Assembly (NCBI RefSeq): GCF_034092375.1
Contig: NZ_CP139302.1
Span: 1,364,001-1,428,000, forward strand
Direction of reading: 5' to 3'
Source of the DNA: Prochlorococcus sp. MIT 1300
GTDB taxonomy: Bacteria; Cyanobacteriota; Cyanobacteriia; PCC-6307; Cyanobiaceae
Length of the DNA stretch: 64,000 bases
Made by a program: the position numbers and the translations under genes. Every line of letters begins with the position of its first letter. Positions within the stretch are counted from its first letter, which is position 1. The notes under the pieces are model-generated. The model saw only the letters and a program-made list of their open reading frames with translations. It was not told the DNA's origin and made no database searches. Positions 50,722 through 56,978 of the stretch are shown piece after piece.

Positions 50722-51573
50722 ATGGCATTAACAAGAAAATCTGAACCCTATCCACATTGGGAGTATGTATATCCAGACAACGGTGACAGATTGCGTGTAG
50801 TCCCTGAACGAGGGGGCCTCGTTAGTGAATGGCGTTGTAATGATCGAGAAATGTTGTACTTTGATCGAAGTAGATTTTTAGAGCCCTGGCAGAGTATTCG
50901 TGGGGGCATCCCAATACTTTTTCCAATATGTGGCAATCTCCCTGGCAATACTTTGCCTTTGGCTGAGGGCAACACAACTCTTCCACAACATGGATTTGCA
51001 AGAGATTTGAAATGGGATTTATCTCAGTGTGATCAGGGCAATGGTATTCAGTTATTGCTTGAACAGAATAGTCATTCGCTTGCAGTATACCCCTTCCTTT
51101 TTACATTAGAGATTAGCTTTTATCTTTTAAAGAACTCGTTAGAAGTATCTATTTTATTAAGAAATACCGGCGATTCGGATATGCCTTTTAATTTCGGATT
51201 ACATCCATATTTTTTAGTAGATGATCTTTCAAGGACTCGGATCGAAGGGCTTTCGAATAAATGTTTTGATCATATTCGCTCGGCTGAAGATTTAACTAAT
51301 AATCAATTGTCTAACCTTTCTTCAGGTGTAGATTTCTTAACTCGTTCATCAAGTCGAGTCACTCTCTTTGATGATGCAGCTGGCACTGCTTTAGAAGTAC
51401 ATAACAAAGAGCCTATGGACTTAACAGTTATTTGGACAGATCCACCGCGTAAAATGGTCTGTATAGAACCATGGACTAGTCCTAGGAATTCTATGATTTC
51501 TGGAGATAGGAAGTTAGCCCTAGCTCCTGGTGAAGATGTAAACTTTAGCTGTAAGTTTTTACAAGTAACTTAG
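50722..51573 (+). CDS. Aldose 1-epimerase (galactose mutarotase) family protein
   Basis: A 283-residue protein of the mutarotase-like beta-sandwich fold. It has RVVPERGGLVSEWRCNDREMLY, RGGIPILFPICGNLPG and LPQHGFARDLKW (with the active His), NFGLHPYFLV (second His), and VCIEPWTSP near the end (catalytic Glu). The pattern FPxxG, HGFAR, LHPYF suggests a D-hexose-6-phosphate mutarotase (YeaD-like). An 11-A run lies just before the start. It overlaps the convergent glcE by four bases. Confidence 0.88.
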   Translation: MALTRKSEPYPHWEYVYPDNGDRLRVVPERGGLVSEWRCNDREMLYFDRSRFLEPWQSIRGGIPILFPICGNLPGNTLPLAEGNTTLPQHGFARDLKWDLSQCDQGNGIQLLLEQNSHSLAVYPFLFTLEISFYLLKNSLEVSILLRNTGDSDMPFNFGLHPYFLVDDLSRTRIEGLSNKCFDHIRSAEDLTNNQLSNLSSGVDFLTRSSSRVTLFDDAAGTALEVHNKEPMDLTVIWTDPPRKMVCIEPWTSPRNSMISGDRKLALAPGEDVNFSCKFLQVT

Positions 51574-52790
51574 CCAGCGACGCCAGGTAATCTTCCTATG
51601 GCTATGAGTTCCTTAGGGTCAAATTGAATTTTGAGTGCTTGAATCAGCTGCTTTGATTCTGCATCTAACCAGCACAACAAAGGGCCGCCTTCTATATTTT
51701 TAGGTTGAACAAATATTGTTAGCAACCCTCCAAGCTCATGAACTTTATCCCTAAGTAGCTTTATTGTTTCTACACTTGTTTGACTTTCTGAATTGCTTTG
51801 CCATGTATCTCCTATCCCAACTCCTGCCGCGAAACGCAACCGCCAGTCTTTAATTGCAGATAGCTCTTGACTTTTTAGTAGCTTATGAACTTCTGACGGA
51901 GGCATCATTATTCTGGCTAACCAAGTAACTTCTTGAAGTGAATTTTTATTTGGAATATGTTCTGGTTGTGGTTCATTCCATTCAAGCATATTTATAGATA
52001 TTTTCGTTTCTTCTGCAAGTCTAATTAGTCTGTTGGATTGTTCTTTTAATGAATTCATATTTACACTTGCTATACCTATTTCTAGCCCAATTTCATTCGA
52101 TCTACTTTTAACCCAATCAATATATTCAGGAGAGAATGATGAACGAAGAAGTAAACGTCTCCAAGTTTCCAGTGAGTTAAGTTCTCCTTTCGCCTTGAGG
52201 CAGCAACGTGCTTGTCTTATGGGTTGCGTTCTTAACGTGATTTCAGTAATCATACCTAAACTCCCCCAGCTCCCACATAGCAATCGCATCAAGTCATAGC
52301 CCGCAACATTTTTTACAACACGTCCTCCTGCATGAGCTTCAATGCCATCACTTCGAAGCATCCCTATGCCAATTATTTGATCACGGACGCCTAAATATCT
52401 TTGACGCAAACTACTAGATAATCCTCGGGCGACTAACCCTCCAATAGTTCCTGCAGTAGATGTTTTTTGGTCAGCCTCAGTGCCCCATGGCCAGTCAACT
52501 GGAAGCCATTGAGATTCTTCGGATAGTTCAGCCTGAAGCTCTGCTAAAGACATTCCAGCTTGAACTGTAATTGTGAAATCATTTTTTGCAAAATCAATTA
52601 TGTGATTTAGTTTTCTAACGCTTATGGGGTGAGATGTAGCTTGAAGAGGGGCCCCCCAGTTGAGACGACTTGTTCGACCACATGGGAACCAGGATTGACC
52701 TTCTTCATGAAAATCTTTTAAAAGAGTTGCAATGTCTTTTACATTCTTTGGTGCCAGTGCTCTGGCATGAAGTTGAGGAGAGTTGTTCAC
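51570..52790 (-). CDS. glcE: FAD-binding subunit of glycolate oxidase/dehydrogenase, GlcE-like
   Basis: GlcE is the FAD-binding subunit that works with GlcD and GlcF to oxidise glycolate to glyoxylate. The 406-residue protein has the PCMH-type FAD domain with CGRTSRLNWG, VQAGMSLAELQAELS, and the GGLVARGLSS and GGRVVKNVAGYDLMRLL motifs. The C-terminal half is less conserved. A divergent kinase gene starts 14 bases away, and glcF lies beyond it on the same strand as glcE. No glcD lies in the window. Confidence 0.87.
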   Translation of the reverse strand: MNNSPQLHARALAPKNVKDIATLLKDFHEEGQSWFPCGRTSRLNWGAPLQATSHPISVRKLNHIIDFAKNDFTITVQAGMSLAELQAELSEESQWLPVDWPWGTEADQKTSTAGTIGGLVARGLSSSLRQRYLGVRDQIIGIGMLRSDGIEAHAGGRVVKNVAGYDLMRLLCGSWGSLGMITEITLRTQPIRQARCCLKAKGELNSLETWRRLLLRSSFSPEYIDWVKSRSNEIGLEIGIASVNMNSLKEQSNRLIRLAEETKISINMLEWNEPQPEHIPNKNSLQEVTWLARIMMPPSEVHKLLKSQELSAIKDWRLRFAAGVGIGDTWQSNSESQTSVETIKLLRDKVHELGGLLTIFVQPKNIEGGPLLCWLDAESKQLIQALKIQFDPKELIAIGRLPGVAG

Positions 52791-52804
52791 TGCACAATGA
52801 AGTT

Positions 52805-54160
52805 ATGAAGATTGTTGTGCTCGATGATGACCCCACAGGCTCTCAGACTGTTCATGGCTGTTTGCTCTTGTTGAGTTGGGAGGTGAGTCTTCTAAGGAAG
52901 GGCTTGAGGGACCCTTCTCCGTTTTTGTTTGTGATTGCAAATACACGGGCTCTGATGCCTGAGGAGGCTTTGAGCAGAAATCGTTTGATTTGTAATTCAC
53001 TTAAAAAGGCTATGGCTGCGGAGGGGATTAAGCAAAGGGATTTGATTTTTGTAAGTCGAGGCGATTCAACGCTTAGAGGCCATGGTTTTTTGGAGCCCAA
53101 GGTCATAGCAGAAGAATTGGGGCCATTCGATGCGACTATCCATGTGCCTGCTTTTTTAGAAGGTGGTCGAACTACTATCGATGGTGTTCATTTATTAAAT
53201 GGTCAGCCAGTACATAACACAGTTTTTGCTCGTGATCGTCTCTTTGGCTACTCGACTAGTGATTTAGCGGCTTGGTTAGAGGAGAAGAGTAATGGTGCAA
53301 TTCCTCAACAATCCGTGGTTCGAATATCTCTTGAACAGTTAGATGATGCTTCTACTAGTTCAGCAGGGCAGAAGAGGTTGGAAGAGTGGTTGAGTAAACT
53401 GAGAGATAATAAGCATGTAATAGTAGATGCTGAATATTCGCATCAATTGGATGCCTTAGGTACAGCAGTAAGGAAATTGATGGGACATAAGAAGTTTTTA
53501 TTTCGTTCGGCTGCGAGTTTGCTTAATGGTCTTTCGAAGAAAAGATCTCGACTATTGAGTAAGGAATATTTGCGAGAATTGCGGGCTAGAGATTCATCTG
53601 GACATCCCTTGCCTGGGATTATCATGGTGGGTTCTCATGTGTCTCTTGCTGATGCTCAGATTCGGCGCTTGCTTGAAACACCTAATTGTGAAGGCCTTGA
53701 GCTTTCAGTTCGTGATATCGCAAGGTGCTTAGATCAAGCTTGCGCTAGAGATCAACTTCTTTCTGACTTGAAAAAACAATATCTTGACCAAGTGATCAAG
53801 ATATTGGACATGGGGAAAACACCTGTCCTTTATACAACTCGTGGAGAAGTTGTGTTTAGTTCTATGGAATTAAGGATGGTATTTGGTCAAAAAATTGCTG
53901 AATTTATGGGACACTTGGCAGGAATATTGGCTCCAAAAATTGGTTACTTAATTAGTAAAGGTGGCATTACGACATTAACATTACTTTCACAAGGCCTGGA
54001 ACTTAGCTCGGTATATTTAGAAGGGCAAATCCTGCCAGGTCTTTCGTTGGTAATGCCTTCTGAAGACAAGCTTCATAACTTGCCAGTGGTTACATTTCCT
54101 GGCAACTTGGGAGGCCCTGAGACACTTTTTGAGGCTTGGCTTCTAATTGATTCCCTGTGA
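52805..54160 (+). CDS. DUF1537-family four-carbon acid sugar kinase-like protein
   Basis: This 451-residue protein starts MKIVVLDDDPTGSQTVHG, the DDDPTG motif of the DUF1537 (SBD_N/NBD_C) family, kinases acting on erythronate, threonate or related acid sugars. Further motifs are FVSRGDSTLRGHG, HVPAFLEGGRTTIDGVH, GSHVSLADAQI, and LISKGGITTLTLLSQ near the C-terminus. Length fits the family. It is inserted between glcE and glcF, opposite strand, 14 bases from the glcE start and overlapping glcF by 18 bases at the tail. The natural substrate in cyanobacteria is not known to me. Confidence 0.9.
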   Translation: MKIVVLDDDPTGSQTVHGCLLLLSWEVSLLRKGLRDPSPFLFVIANTRALMPEEALSRNRLICNSLKKAMAAEGIKQRDLIFVSRGDSTLRGHGFLEPKVIAEELGPFDATIHVPAFLEGGRTTIDGVHLLNGQPVHNTVFARDRLFGYSTSDLAAWLEEKSNGAIPQQSVVRISLEQLDDASTSSAGQKRLEEWLSKLRDNKHVIVDAEYSHQLDALGTAVRKLMGHKKFLFRSAASLLNGLSKKRSRLLSKEYLRELRARDSSGHPLPGIIMVGSHVSLADAQIRRLLETPNCEGLELSVRDIARCLDQACARDQLLSDLKKQYLDQVIKILDMGKTPVLYTTRGEVVFSSMELRMVFGQKIAEFMGHLAGILAPKIGYLISKGGITTLTLLSQGLELSSVYLEGQILPGLSLVMPSEDKLHNLPVVTFPGNLGGPETLFEAWLLIDSL

Positions 54161-55522
54161 ATCTTTTAGTAGCTCCATAGGATGCTTTACTGTTAATTTA
54201 CTATCTAAATGACACCTAAGTTGCAGTGTGCAGCCTATATTTGCACTAGCCACAATCTCGGCACCAGTTTTAGAGAGGTCGGCAGCTTTTATCTTGCCCA
54301 AATCGGCGGCTTCTTCTGGTCTTACAATGTTATAGATGCCTGCACTTCCGCAGCAAACACCGGCTTCTGTCGCTTCCTTCAAAAGTAGGTAAGGGATGTT
54401 TTTTAATAGATCACGTGGTTGATAGCTTATCCCTTGGCCATGAATCATATGACAGGCATCGTGATAGACAACCTCGCATGGATTTTGTTCACTAGATTCC
54501 TCCCCACCCTTATGTCTAAGAGGTTTTAAACTTGCAAGAAAACTGTGTGATAAACCTTTGCTAAATAGAAATTCATGAACGTCCATTACTGGCACTTTGA
54601 AATCGATTTCGTTGTTAAATAGTGCACCATAAGCCTTCATCGTATGGCCACACCCTGAAGCTGCAATTAAAATTGCATCTATTGATTTATCACCTTTAGC
54701 TAGCTCAGGTTCAATGCTAGAGGTGAAGCTTTGAACTAGCTTTGAGGCTAATTCTTTGGTCTGTTGTAAATCTCCCTGGTGATGAGTAACTGCACCACAA
54801 CAGCCTTGGTTATGTGGAATAAGAACTTCGAACCCATTAGCTTGCAGCACTTCTAATGTCGCTTGGTTGACCTCAGGATCAAAACATCTTTGGACACAAC
54901 CTAGAACTAGTCCAACACGTCCTCTGTAATCACCTTGGGCAGGATTGATTACTTGAAAGTTATCTATAAAGTTGTTTTTCTTTAGCTCAGGAAGAAGAGC
55001 TTCCATTGAGGCTATTTGGGGCCCAAGTAAATTTGTGAAACCAGATTTTTGAAATATTTTTTGTATTGGTTTTCCTGAATACAGGCGAATCACATTAAGA
55101 AGCTTTCTGAGCCTTTTGGGGTAGGGCAATATGTTTAGAAGGAGTTTCCGAAGAAAGTTGTCGCAAGGGCTACGAAGTCCTGCTTTATTTAGTTTTGGTC
55201 GAGTTTTTTCAATTAGTTCGTCATATCGCACGCCAGAGGGACATGCAGTGACACATGCGAAGCACCCCAGGCAAGTGTCAAAGTGACTAGCGATTGTTGG
55301 GTCTAGTTTGAGCTCCTCGTTTTGAATCGCTTTGAGCATGTGGATTCTGCCTCTTGGTGAATCCATTTCGGTACCTAATACTCTGTAGCTTGCACACGTG
55401 GGCAGGCAGAAGCCACAGTGGACACAAGGGTCTGTCGCATTCCCAACAGTTTTTAAAGTTTGGCCTTCACCAAGGCGTGACTTTTGACTCATAGGACTCA
55501 CGGATTTATTTGTTGGGTCCAC
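54143..55522 (-). CDS. glcF: Iron-sulfur subunit of glycolate oxidase/dehydrogenase, GlcF-like
   Basis: GlcF passes electrons from the flavin subunits. The 459-residue protein has two 4Fe-4S sites, C33, C36, C39, C43 in CVHCGFCLPTC and a second in CLGCFACVTACPSG near residue 90, and CCG domains with GCVQRCFDPEVNQ, GCCGAVTHHQGD and VCCGSAGIYNI. It could also be another lactate-type Fe-S oxidoreductase, but with GlcE close by GlcF is favoured. Its 3' end overlaps the kinase gene by 18 bases. Confidence 0.9.
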   Translation of the reverse strand: MDPTNKSVSPMSQKSRLGEGQTLKTVGNATDPCVHCGFCLPTCASYRVLGTEMDSPRGRIHMLKAIQNEELKLDPTIASHFDTCLGCFACVTACPSGVRYDELIEKTRPKLNKAGLRSPCDNFLRKLLLNILPYPKRLRKLLNVIRLYSGKPIQKIFQKSGFTNLLGPQIASMEALLPELKKNNFIDNFQVINPAQGDYRGRVGLVLGCVQRCFDPEVNQATLEVLQANGFEVLIPHNQGCCGAVTHHQGDLQQTKELASKLVQSFTSSIEPELAKGDKSIDAILIAASGCGHTMKAYGALFNNEIDFKVPVMDVHEFLFSKGLSHSFLASLKPLRHKGGEESSEQNPCEVVYHDACHMIHGQGISYQPRDLLKNIPYLLLKEATEAGVCCGSAGIYNIVRPEEAADLGKIKAADLSKTGAEIVASANIGCTLQLRCHLDSKLTVKHPMELLKDSQGIN

Positions 55523-55553: not shown

Positions 55554-56978
55554 TCAAAAACGATCTATAACCGCTTTTGCGAATTCGCTGCATCTCAAAG
55601 GCTCAACTTTAGGTTCCATTAATCGAGCTAGATCGTAGGTCACTTTTTGATCTGAGATGGATTGACTAAGTCCTTTAGTAATCAGGTCAGCAGCTTCTTT
55701 CCATCCAAGGAATTCGAGCATCATTACTCCACTAAGGATGACTGAGCCAGGGTTAATGCGATCCAGCCCAGCATGTTTAGGAGCAGTTCCATGGGTTGCC
55801 TCAAATATGGCAGCATTGTCACCAATATTGGCCCCTGGTGCCATTCCCAACCCTCCCACAATTGCAGCAGCAGCATCAGAAATATAGTCACCATTAAGAT
55901 TCAAAGTTGCCAGTATTGAATATTCCTGTGGACGAGTTTGTATTTGTTGAAAAATGCTATCAGCTATACGATCATCCACCATTACCATTTCACGCCATTT
56001 CCCATTTCCATGTGTGTTTCCTATGGATTTAATTACACTTTTAACTTCTAAGCATATTGCTTCTTTTTTTTCTTGTGTTAGGGATTCGTATCCAGGTTCA
56101 ATCATCTGTCCGTTATTCTCAAGGCTAATGCTTGGATTCTTCTCGACATTATTTAGTATCCAACTCTCTCGTTCTGTAATGCAAAACTCCCTAAATTCGC
56201 TAGTGGCTAATTGGTAACCCCAGTCACGAAATGCGCCCTCTGTATATTTCATAATATTGCCTTTGTGAACAAGTGTCACATGGCGTTTATGCCCTTTGAG
56301 TCGCAATGCATGTTGAATAGCCTTTTTGATGTGTCGTTGACTGCCATGTTTACTGACTGGTTTGATGCCAATTCCTGCTTCCATTGGGATTTGTCGTTTG
56401 CCGAGCTTTCCATTCGCTGGAATAATTTCAGAATTAAGAAGGTTGCAAAGCTTTTGTCCTACCGGATCAGTGGCTTCCCACTCAATTCCCATATATATGT
56501 CCTCAGTGTTTTCTCTGTAGACAACTACATCTAGATCTTGAGGGCGTTTGTGCGGACTAGGAGTGCCGTTGTAATAACGGCAAGGTCGCACGCAAGAGTA
56601 AAGGTCAAAGATTTGTCGCAAGGCAACATTGAGTGAGCGAATGCCTCCACCAACTGGAGTGGTTAAAGGTCCTTTAATGGCGACGCCATAAGTTCTAATT
56701 GCTTGCAATGTATCTTCAGGGAGATATTGATAGGTTCCATAAAGGTCACAGGCTTCATCCCCTGCGTAAACCTTGAACCATTTGATTTGTCTGTGTTTTC
56801 CATAAGCCTTAGCCACTGCTGCATTTAATACGCTTTTTGTTGCAGGCCAGATGTCAACACCTGTTCCATCTCCTCTAATAAAGGGAATAATGGGATTGTT
56901 TGGGACAACTGGCTGTCCTTTTTCAAATCGGATCTGCTCACCTTCTGTTGGGGCAGTTAACTTTTGGAATTGGGCCAT
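55554..56978 (-). CDS. icd: Isocitrate dehydrogenase (NADP+)
   Basis: Icd makes 2-oxoglutarate, the carbon skeleton for nitrogen assimilation in cyanobacteria. The 474-residue protein has [34 protein letters not shown] with the substrate-binding Ser and Arg, [29 protein letters not shown], and [19 protein letters not shown]. It is one of the long bacterial forms with an insertion around residues 270-320. It is divergent from the GtrB-like gene, 136 bases apart, and upstream of glcF on the same strand. Confidence 0.96.

Follow-up and report, generated by a model that had tools for sequence, protein, structure and literature searches.

The DUF1537 kinase encoded in the window, a stretch of 64,000 nucleotides from Prochlorococcus sp. 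MIT 1300 (NZ_CP139302.1, positions 1,364,001 to 1,428,000), is a near-universal protein of its cyanobacterial class that carries both domains and the conserved residues of its family, and in the window's family (Cyanobiaceae) its gene is consistently paired with an oxidase gene that has been replaced by another in part of the genomes. The oxidase family varies at the locus and the chemistry is constant. The locus arrangement was confirmed; it is shared across the family and involves a core gene of the class. Most likely, the neighboring enzyme oxidizes a four-carbon 2-hydroxy acid and the kinase then phosphorylates. Judged from sequence, the best explanation, in which we place moderate confidence, is an active DUF1537 kinase of the 2-OtnK kind that would phosphorylate a 2-oxo four-carbon acid formed by the adjacent oxidase. 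This two-step reaction may serve to salvage carbon or to supply vitamin B6, the latter being the bolder reading.

In the window, the ORF list and the sequence give the order GlcE-like gene (51570..52790, minus strand), DUF1537 kinase (52805..54160, plus strand, 451 aa), and GlcF-like gene (54143..55522, minus strand). ORF, Pfam, alignment, and tree data assign the kinase (SBD_N plus NBD_C) to a 2-OtnK-like subfamily, while ORF, Pfam, NCBIfam, and gene order data identify its neighbors: the head-to-head gene encodes a GlcE-like, FAD-binding subunit of a dehydrogenase for 2-hydroxyacids (glycolate type), and the tail-to-tail gene a GlcF-like iron-sulfur subunit. The GlcE-like protein has an FAD_binding_4 domain and the GlcF-like protein has CCG and Fer4 domains (Pfam). 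Both fell below the NCBIfam equivalog cut-offs (GlcE, NF008439, 130.5 vs. 284 bits; GlcF, NF008434, 254.7 vs. 333 bits), hence glcE and glcF are used here as names by resemblance. The locus is flanked on one side by an isocitrate dehydrogenase-like gene (Iso_dh, hereafter icd; 55554..56978, minus strand), a constant neighbor that directly adjoins the end of the kinase gene in genomes without glcF, and on the other by an aldose 1-epimerase-like gene (50722..51573, plus strand), both identified from Pfam matches and compared loci.

The kinase runs from an ATG at 52805 to a stop at 54160, and the glcE-like gene starts at a GTG at 52790. A longer kinase ORF is possible from an in-frame TTG at 52670 (496 aa), however, homologous sequence in the alignment begins at the methionine at 52805. 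The original prediction had put 14 bases between the two starts and an 18-base overlap between the kinase and glcF tails, and the ORF coordinates agree with both (gap, 52791..52804; overlap, 54143..54160). Its kinase span of 52791 to 54160 ended correctly and began at the first base of the gap instead of at the gene. Relatives of the glcE product align from query residue 2 to 18, which leaves its start uncertain by several codons and makes the 14-bp gap a lower bound. The regulatory signals of the glcE-like gene and the kinase would each lie inside the other gene.

The original prediction had also suggested comparing gene order among relatives. The kinase was found in 185 of 201 drawn genomes of the window's family and in 127 of the 130 of good quality, among which glcE was found in 109, a count that includes weak cross-matches to GlcD-like genes, and glcF in 100. 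Pairing was tabulated for 150 kinase loci of the family. A strong glcE match was also present in 104 of these genomes, always on the contig of the kinase, and the two genes were head-to-head in 101 (all but G097, G138, and G188), a pairing beyond chance. Their starts were separated by -10 to 125 bp, the median being 29 bp, or 11 bp once glcE was extended to query residue 1. For glcF and the kinase, a tail-to-tail arrangement within 60 bp was recorded in 55 of 102 genomes; the distance was 61 to 3000 bp in 32 and greater in 14, and glcF lay elsewhere in one. Hence, glcE is the firm partner of the kinase and glcF a loose one, and the full trio is not the firm unit. A related-locus search of contigs recovered the order seen in the window from Prochlorococcus sp. 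AG-363-P19, as the single locus found. A rare local insertion of the kinase between glcE and glcF was ruled out by the family-wide gene order. Six genomes (G091, G114, G062, G113, G148, and G175) carried a single in-frame TGA within the glcE-like match, which may represent decay or sequencing error.

Neither glcE nor glcF was found in the remaining 46 of the 150 tabulated genomes, all of which have the kinase, and the kinase locus was retrieved for each. In 40 of the 46, the gene immediately upstream, in the orientation of the kinase and 13 to 74 bp from it (median 45), encoded an FMN-dependent 2-hydroxyacid dehydrogenase (PF01070; 410.9 and 411.5 bits in two examples). About half of these loci (21 of 40) also encoded a D-lactate dehydrogenase (Dld, PF09330) that scores as the true enzyme (NCBIfam, 817.5 vs. 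391 bits). The kinase lacked an adjoining oxidase in six genomes, five of them from one genus (g18), the sixth being G025. In loci L034, L037, L043, L044, and 17 others, the pair formed by Dld and the FMN dehydrogenase occupies the place of glcE.

The position of the kinase becomes evidence because the only thing that these unrelated flavoenzymes have in common is the conversion of 2-hydroxy acids to 2-oxo acids by oxidation. Likewise, because the kinase persists in the 46 genomes without glcE and glcF, with the FMN enzyme in 40 of them, the chemistry of its partner is not specific to glycolate, and a role in photorespiratory glycolate metabolism is not needed for the kinase to be kept. The shared pathway for small acids that the original prediction had read from gene position therefore survives in part: the link between glcE and the kinase is conserved and kinase relatives occur in or beside pathways for C4 acids, whereas glycolate gives way to 2-hydroxyacid oxidation in general. 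Exchange of partners (GlcE/GlcF, FMN dehydrogenase, and GarR) narrows the chemistry of the kinase to a 2-oxo acid.

The same loci suggest another explanation, whereby the kinase has a role of its own as a core gene next to icd, and glycolate or lactate oxidases were exchanged alongside it; the exchange may have affected nothing but the use of lactate or glycolate, leaving the kinase a bystander. The kinase tail faces icd at 8 to 129 bp in all 46 loci without glcE and glcF, the g18 genomes and G025 retain the kinase with no oxidase alongside, and Dld and the FMN enzyme resemble lactate genes. Against this, the head-to-head starts of glcE and the kinase are kept while glcF drifts, the same-strand pairing is tight in all 40 loci with the FMN dehydrogenase, and GarR-like genes adjoin the kinase in genomes of the class outside the family. 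We regard this explanation as possible but short of probable. Distances among kinases and among icd sequences were correlated (Mantel r 0.89, 51 genomes), and the kinase therefore looks vertically inherited while the adjacent oxidase was swapped for another family.

Beyond the family, a DUF1537 match was present in 236 of 242 class genomes (223 of the 225 good ones), nearly always as a single gene. Retention of a single-copy kinase at this frequency, including in strongly reduced genomes, suggests a housekeeping function overlooked by annotation. GarR-like genes adjoined the kinase in four genomes of the class (G347, G232, G388, and G306), the first two coming from loci with short flanks. When several kb of context were scrutinized at 33 loci of the class outside the family, a GarR/LtnD-like gene was beside the kinase in two, GlcE/GlcF-like genes were about 2.3 kb away in one, and none of the partners sought was seen at the other 30. 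In one class genome (G408), a second kinase, of YgbK type and with a YgbL-like neighbor, is encoded at locus L053 in addition to the core kinase. A further DUF1537 match (G330:C1:3383267-3383971) lies within a stop-free frame given as 13,782 aa.

The kinase of the window is the one DUF1537 protein of its genome and matches both Pfam domains, SBD_N (PF07005; E 3.9e-49, 167.9 bits vs. a cut-off of 25) and NBD_C (PF17042; E 2.4e-24, 87.1 vs. 28.3 bits). It carries the motif VLDDDPTGSQTVH ... SRGDSTLRGH. An alignment of 19 rows from several subfamilies has 27 invariant columns, and the conserved family residues are intact in the kinase, including invariant positions common to the DtnK-type rows (e.g., D8, D9, T11, G12, D87, S88, T89, R91, G386, and G387). 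A plain phmmer search of the PDB returned no match to the kinase, and a profile search returned 4xfm (E 8.6e-14) and 4xfr (E 9.9e-12).

Relatives of the kinase were found on plasmids, the closer seven of ten records at 29 to 34% identity. In Ligilactobacillus and Priestia, the plasmid-borne relative is accompanied by a gluconate symporter and a GarR-type gene, and in Deinococcus and Rhodococcus by one gene resembling a racemase and another that is FBA-like, the Deinococcus locus additionally encoding an NAD(P)-dependent oxidoreductase. In a tree of 28 rows built without a characterized 2-OtnK, the kinases of the window, the class, and the plasmids formed one group (100/100) on a long branch (2.28), apart from YgbK, a DtnK-type kinase linked to PdxA, and DUF1537 kinases from elsewhere in the phylum. 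Consistent with this separate branch, two assignments were rejected. DtnK, which acts with PdxA2, has the DUF1537 domains in common with the kinase, yet the match is weak (NF047819, 61.9 bits vs. a cut-off of 450) and no pdxA lies near the window kinase. The same domains are found in Escherichia coli YgbK, the 3-oxo-tetronate kinase OtnK (NF043035, 36.5 bits vs. a cut-off of 350), and no YgbL-like gene was found when one was sought near the window kinase.

The known system closest to our preferred reading is that of 2-OtnK, which reportedly acts in the three-step L-threonate/D-erythronate pathway of Guo 2024. A passage of PMC12540250 gives LtnD, 2-OtnK, and 2-OtnC (F_bP_aldolase) as the three steps and, citing Guo 2024, states that cyanobacteria have the enzymes, so that assignment of the kinase to the 2-OtnK kind is already foreseen in print. 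The DUF1537 fold is shared with this pathway and relatives of the window kinase adjoin LtnD/GarR-type and FBA-like genes; unlike that pathway, no dedicated 2-OtnC was found for the window genome, and the picocyanobacterial partner is a flavin enzyme placed head-to-head or upstream. As described in the same source, the Arabidopsis protein LTD (AT1G18270) is a fusion of LtnD, OtnK, and OtnC, predicted to be cytosolic and found in land plants, with a 2-OtnK-like kinase part that is 32% identical to Arthrobacter 2-OtnK (PMC12540250). Among other family members, 4-hydroxy-L-threonine kinase activity is attributed to DUF1537 proteins by Thiaville 2016, where it was demonstrated for STM0162, according to passages of PMC7954711 and PMC10971088; STM0162 is a kinase that feeds the PdxA step, as the window kinase would under a B6 reading, but it is a different DUF1537 member. 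A title- and abstract-level search of the open-licence literature returned neither the pairing pattern nor the missing dedicated aldolase in picocyanobacteria, and no paper dealing with the placement of the kinase next to glcE or with a part played by it in B6 synthesis by cyanobacteria.

In the preferred sequence of reactions, a 2-hydroxyacid dehydrogenase would convert a four-carbon 2-hydroxy acid to the 2-oxo acid. The candidate starting acids are D-erythronate and L-threonate, both 2R hydroxy acids, which would arise from side reactions of sugar phosphates. We infer erythronate or threonate as the source, along with the substrate of the kinase, the order of reactions, and the role of the neighbor as substrate supplier. 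In the window organism, oxidation would be carried out by a GlcE/GlcF complex with the usual GlcD (presumed). Other picocyanobacteria would use an LldD-like FMN enzyme, alone or together with Dld, and some cyanobacteria with large genomes a GarR/LtnD-type enzyme. The kinase would then phosphorylate C4 of the 2-oxo acid, giving 2-oxo-3-hydroxy-4-phosphobutanoate. Two fates of this compound are known. It can be decarboxylated to dihydroxyacetone phosphate, or its 3R form can be transaminated to 4-phosphohydroxythreonine and carried onward to vitamin B6, by enzymes given in passages of PMC9997740. Should it not feed PdxA and PdxJ, the kinase would define a route for C4-acid repair at the Calvin cycle.

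Under the first of these fates, carbon salvage, the kinase would be the middle step between erythronate or threonate and dihydroxyacetone phosphate, and a class II aldolase the last. This matches the published three-step pathway, stated for cyanobacteria in the cited passage of PMC12540250, and the FBA-like genes that adjoin the plasmid relatives. Furthermore, about 70 of 242 class genomes have at least two PF01116 matches (a count read from the listing), and several shorter PF01116 proteins are 38 to 41% identical to the aldolase of the Deinococcus operon. However, the window genome has a single PF01116 match, presumably the Calvin-cycle aldolase, as have 27 of 29 sampled family members including the window genome (the exceptions being G056 with none and G178 with two). 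Of the seven class genomes lacking PF01116, six keep the kinase, among them the one-contig G056, and the inspected loci of the class showed no PF01116 gene in the vicinity of the kinase. The PF01116 counts therefore speak against a dedicated 2-OtnC in picocyanobacteria, although the Calvin-cycle aldolase might serve as one. We regard this fate as possible but less than probable. G056, a genome in one contig, is unlike its sampled relatives in having no class II aldolase match.

In the alternative fate, the kinase and a hydroxyacid oxidase would supply B6 in place of PdxB, with phosphate added late, and an aminotransferase would convert the product to the substrate of PdxA. E. coli PdxB makes 2-oxo-3-hydroxy-4-phosphobutanoate in its 3R form, the stereochemistry needed for the B6 fate. 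A passage of PMC9997740 describes cyanobacteria with PdxA and PdxJ but without PdxB, PdxR, and Epd as an unfilled hole, and puts forward GlcD/GlcF-like proteins as stand-ins for PdxB in Desulfovibrio. For the Epd step, Sad is suggested in a passage of PMC11480449, which notes sad together with pdxA in Microcystis. The route would run from erythrose to erythronate (Sad-like) and on to 2-oxo-erythronate (GlcDEF, LldD, or GarR type), which the kinase would phosphorylate, yielding the compound used by the aminotransferase in the PdxA-PdxJ pathway. If so, B6 synthesis by cyanobacteria without PdxB, called unsolved in the same passage of PMC9997740, would be explained.

Across 146 genomes of the phylum, PdxJ was found in 134 and PdxA in 133, and PdxS exceeded its cut-off in one. 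PF11890, which we take to be the PdxB domain, matched none of the 146, and the E. coli control matched. A DtnK-type DUF1537 kinase adjoins the sole pdxA in 60 of 61 genomes of a family (f44) from another class than the window's, with genomes of 1.6 to 2.3 Mb that we presume to be nonphotosynthetic, several having the gene order ssb-like (by eye), kinase, pdxA. However, that kinase belongs to another subfamily, 23 to 24% identical to the window kinase, and the pair was rejected as orthologous proof, serving as analogy only. Other results also weigh against a B6 role. The kinase and pdxA are about 170 kb apart in the window genome, and PdxJ occurs with neither a DUF1537 nor a PF11890 match in G510 (of the class), G430, and three genomes of family f51. 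Outside the class, PdxJ was present in 66 of 69 genomes with DUF1537 vs. 4 of 13 without (p 4.6e-7, kinship ignored), falling to 6 of 8 vs. 4 of 13 once f44 was removed (p 0.08, kinship ignored); f44 carries the co-occurrence, which was rejected as proof of a B6 role. No kinase was obvious by eye among the ORFs neighboring pdxA in four genomes without the core kinase (G510, G430, G487, and G477). Taken as a B6 supply, the reaction seems unlikely to us, and the specific proposal that oxygenic cyanobacteria replace PdxB with this kinase and a 2-hydroxyacid oxidase on a late-phosphorylation route appears quite unlikely. The f44 kinase directly upstream of pdxA (L090-L097, L126, and L127) may itself be a 4-hydroxythreonine or threonate kinase. 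The control genome of Synechococcus elongatus exceeded the PdxS family cut-off, though cyanobacteria are said to rely on PdxJ.

Phosphorylation of glycerate or another product downstream of glycolate, in keeping with the position of the kinase by glcE and glcF in a photosynthetic class, is very improbable given that cyanobacteria are known to have glycerate kinases from other families, that the kinase is retained where both genes are gone, and that relatives in its subfamily occur in operons of the C4-acid type.
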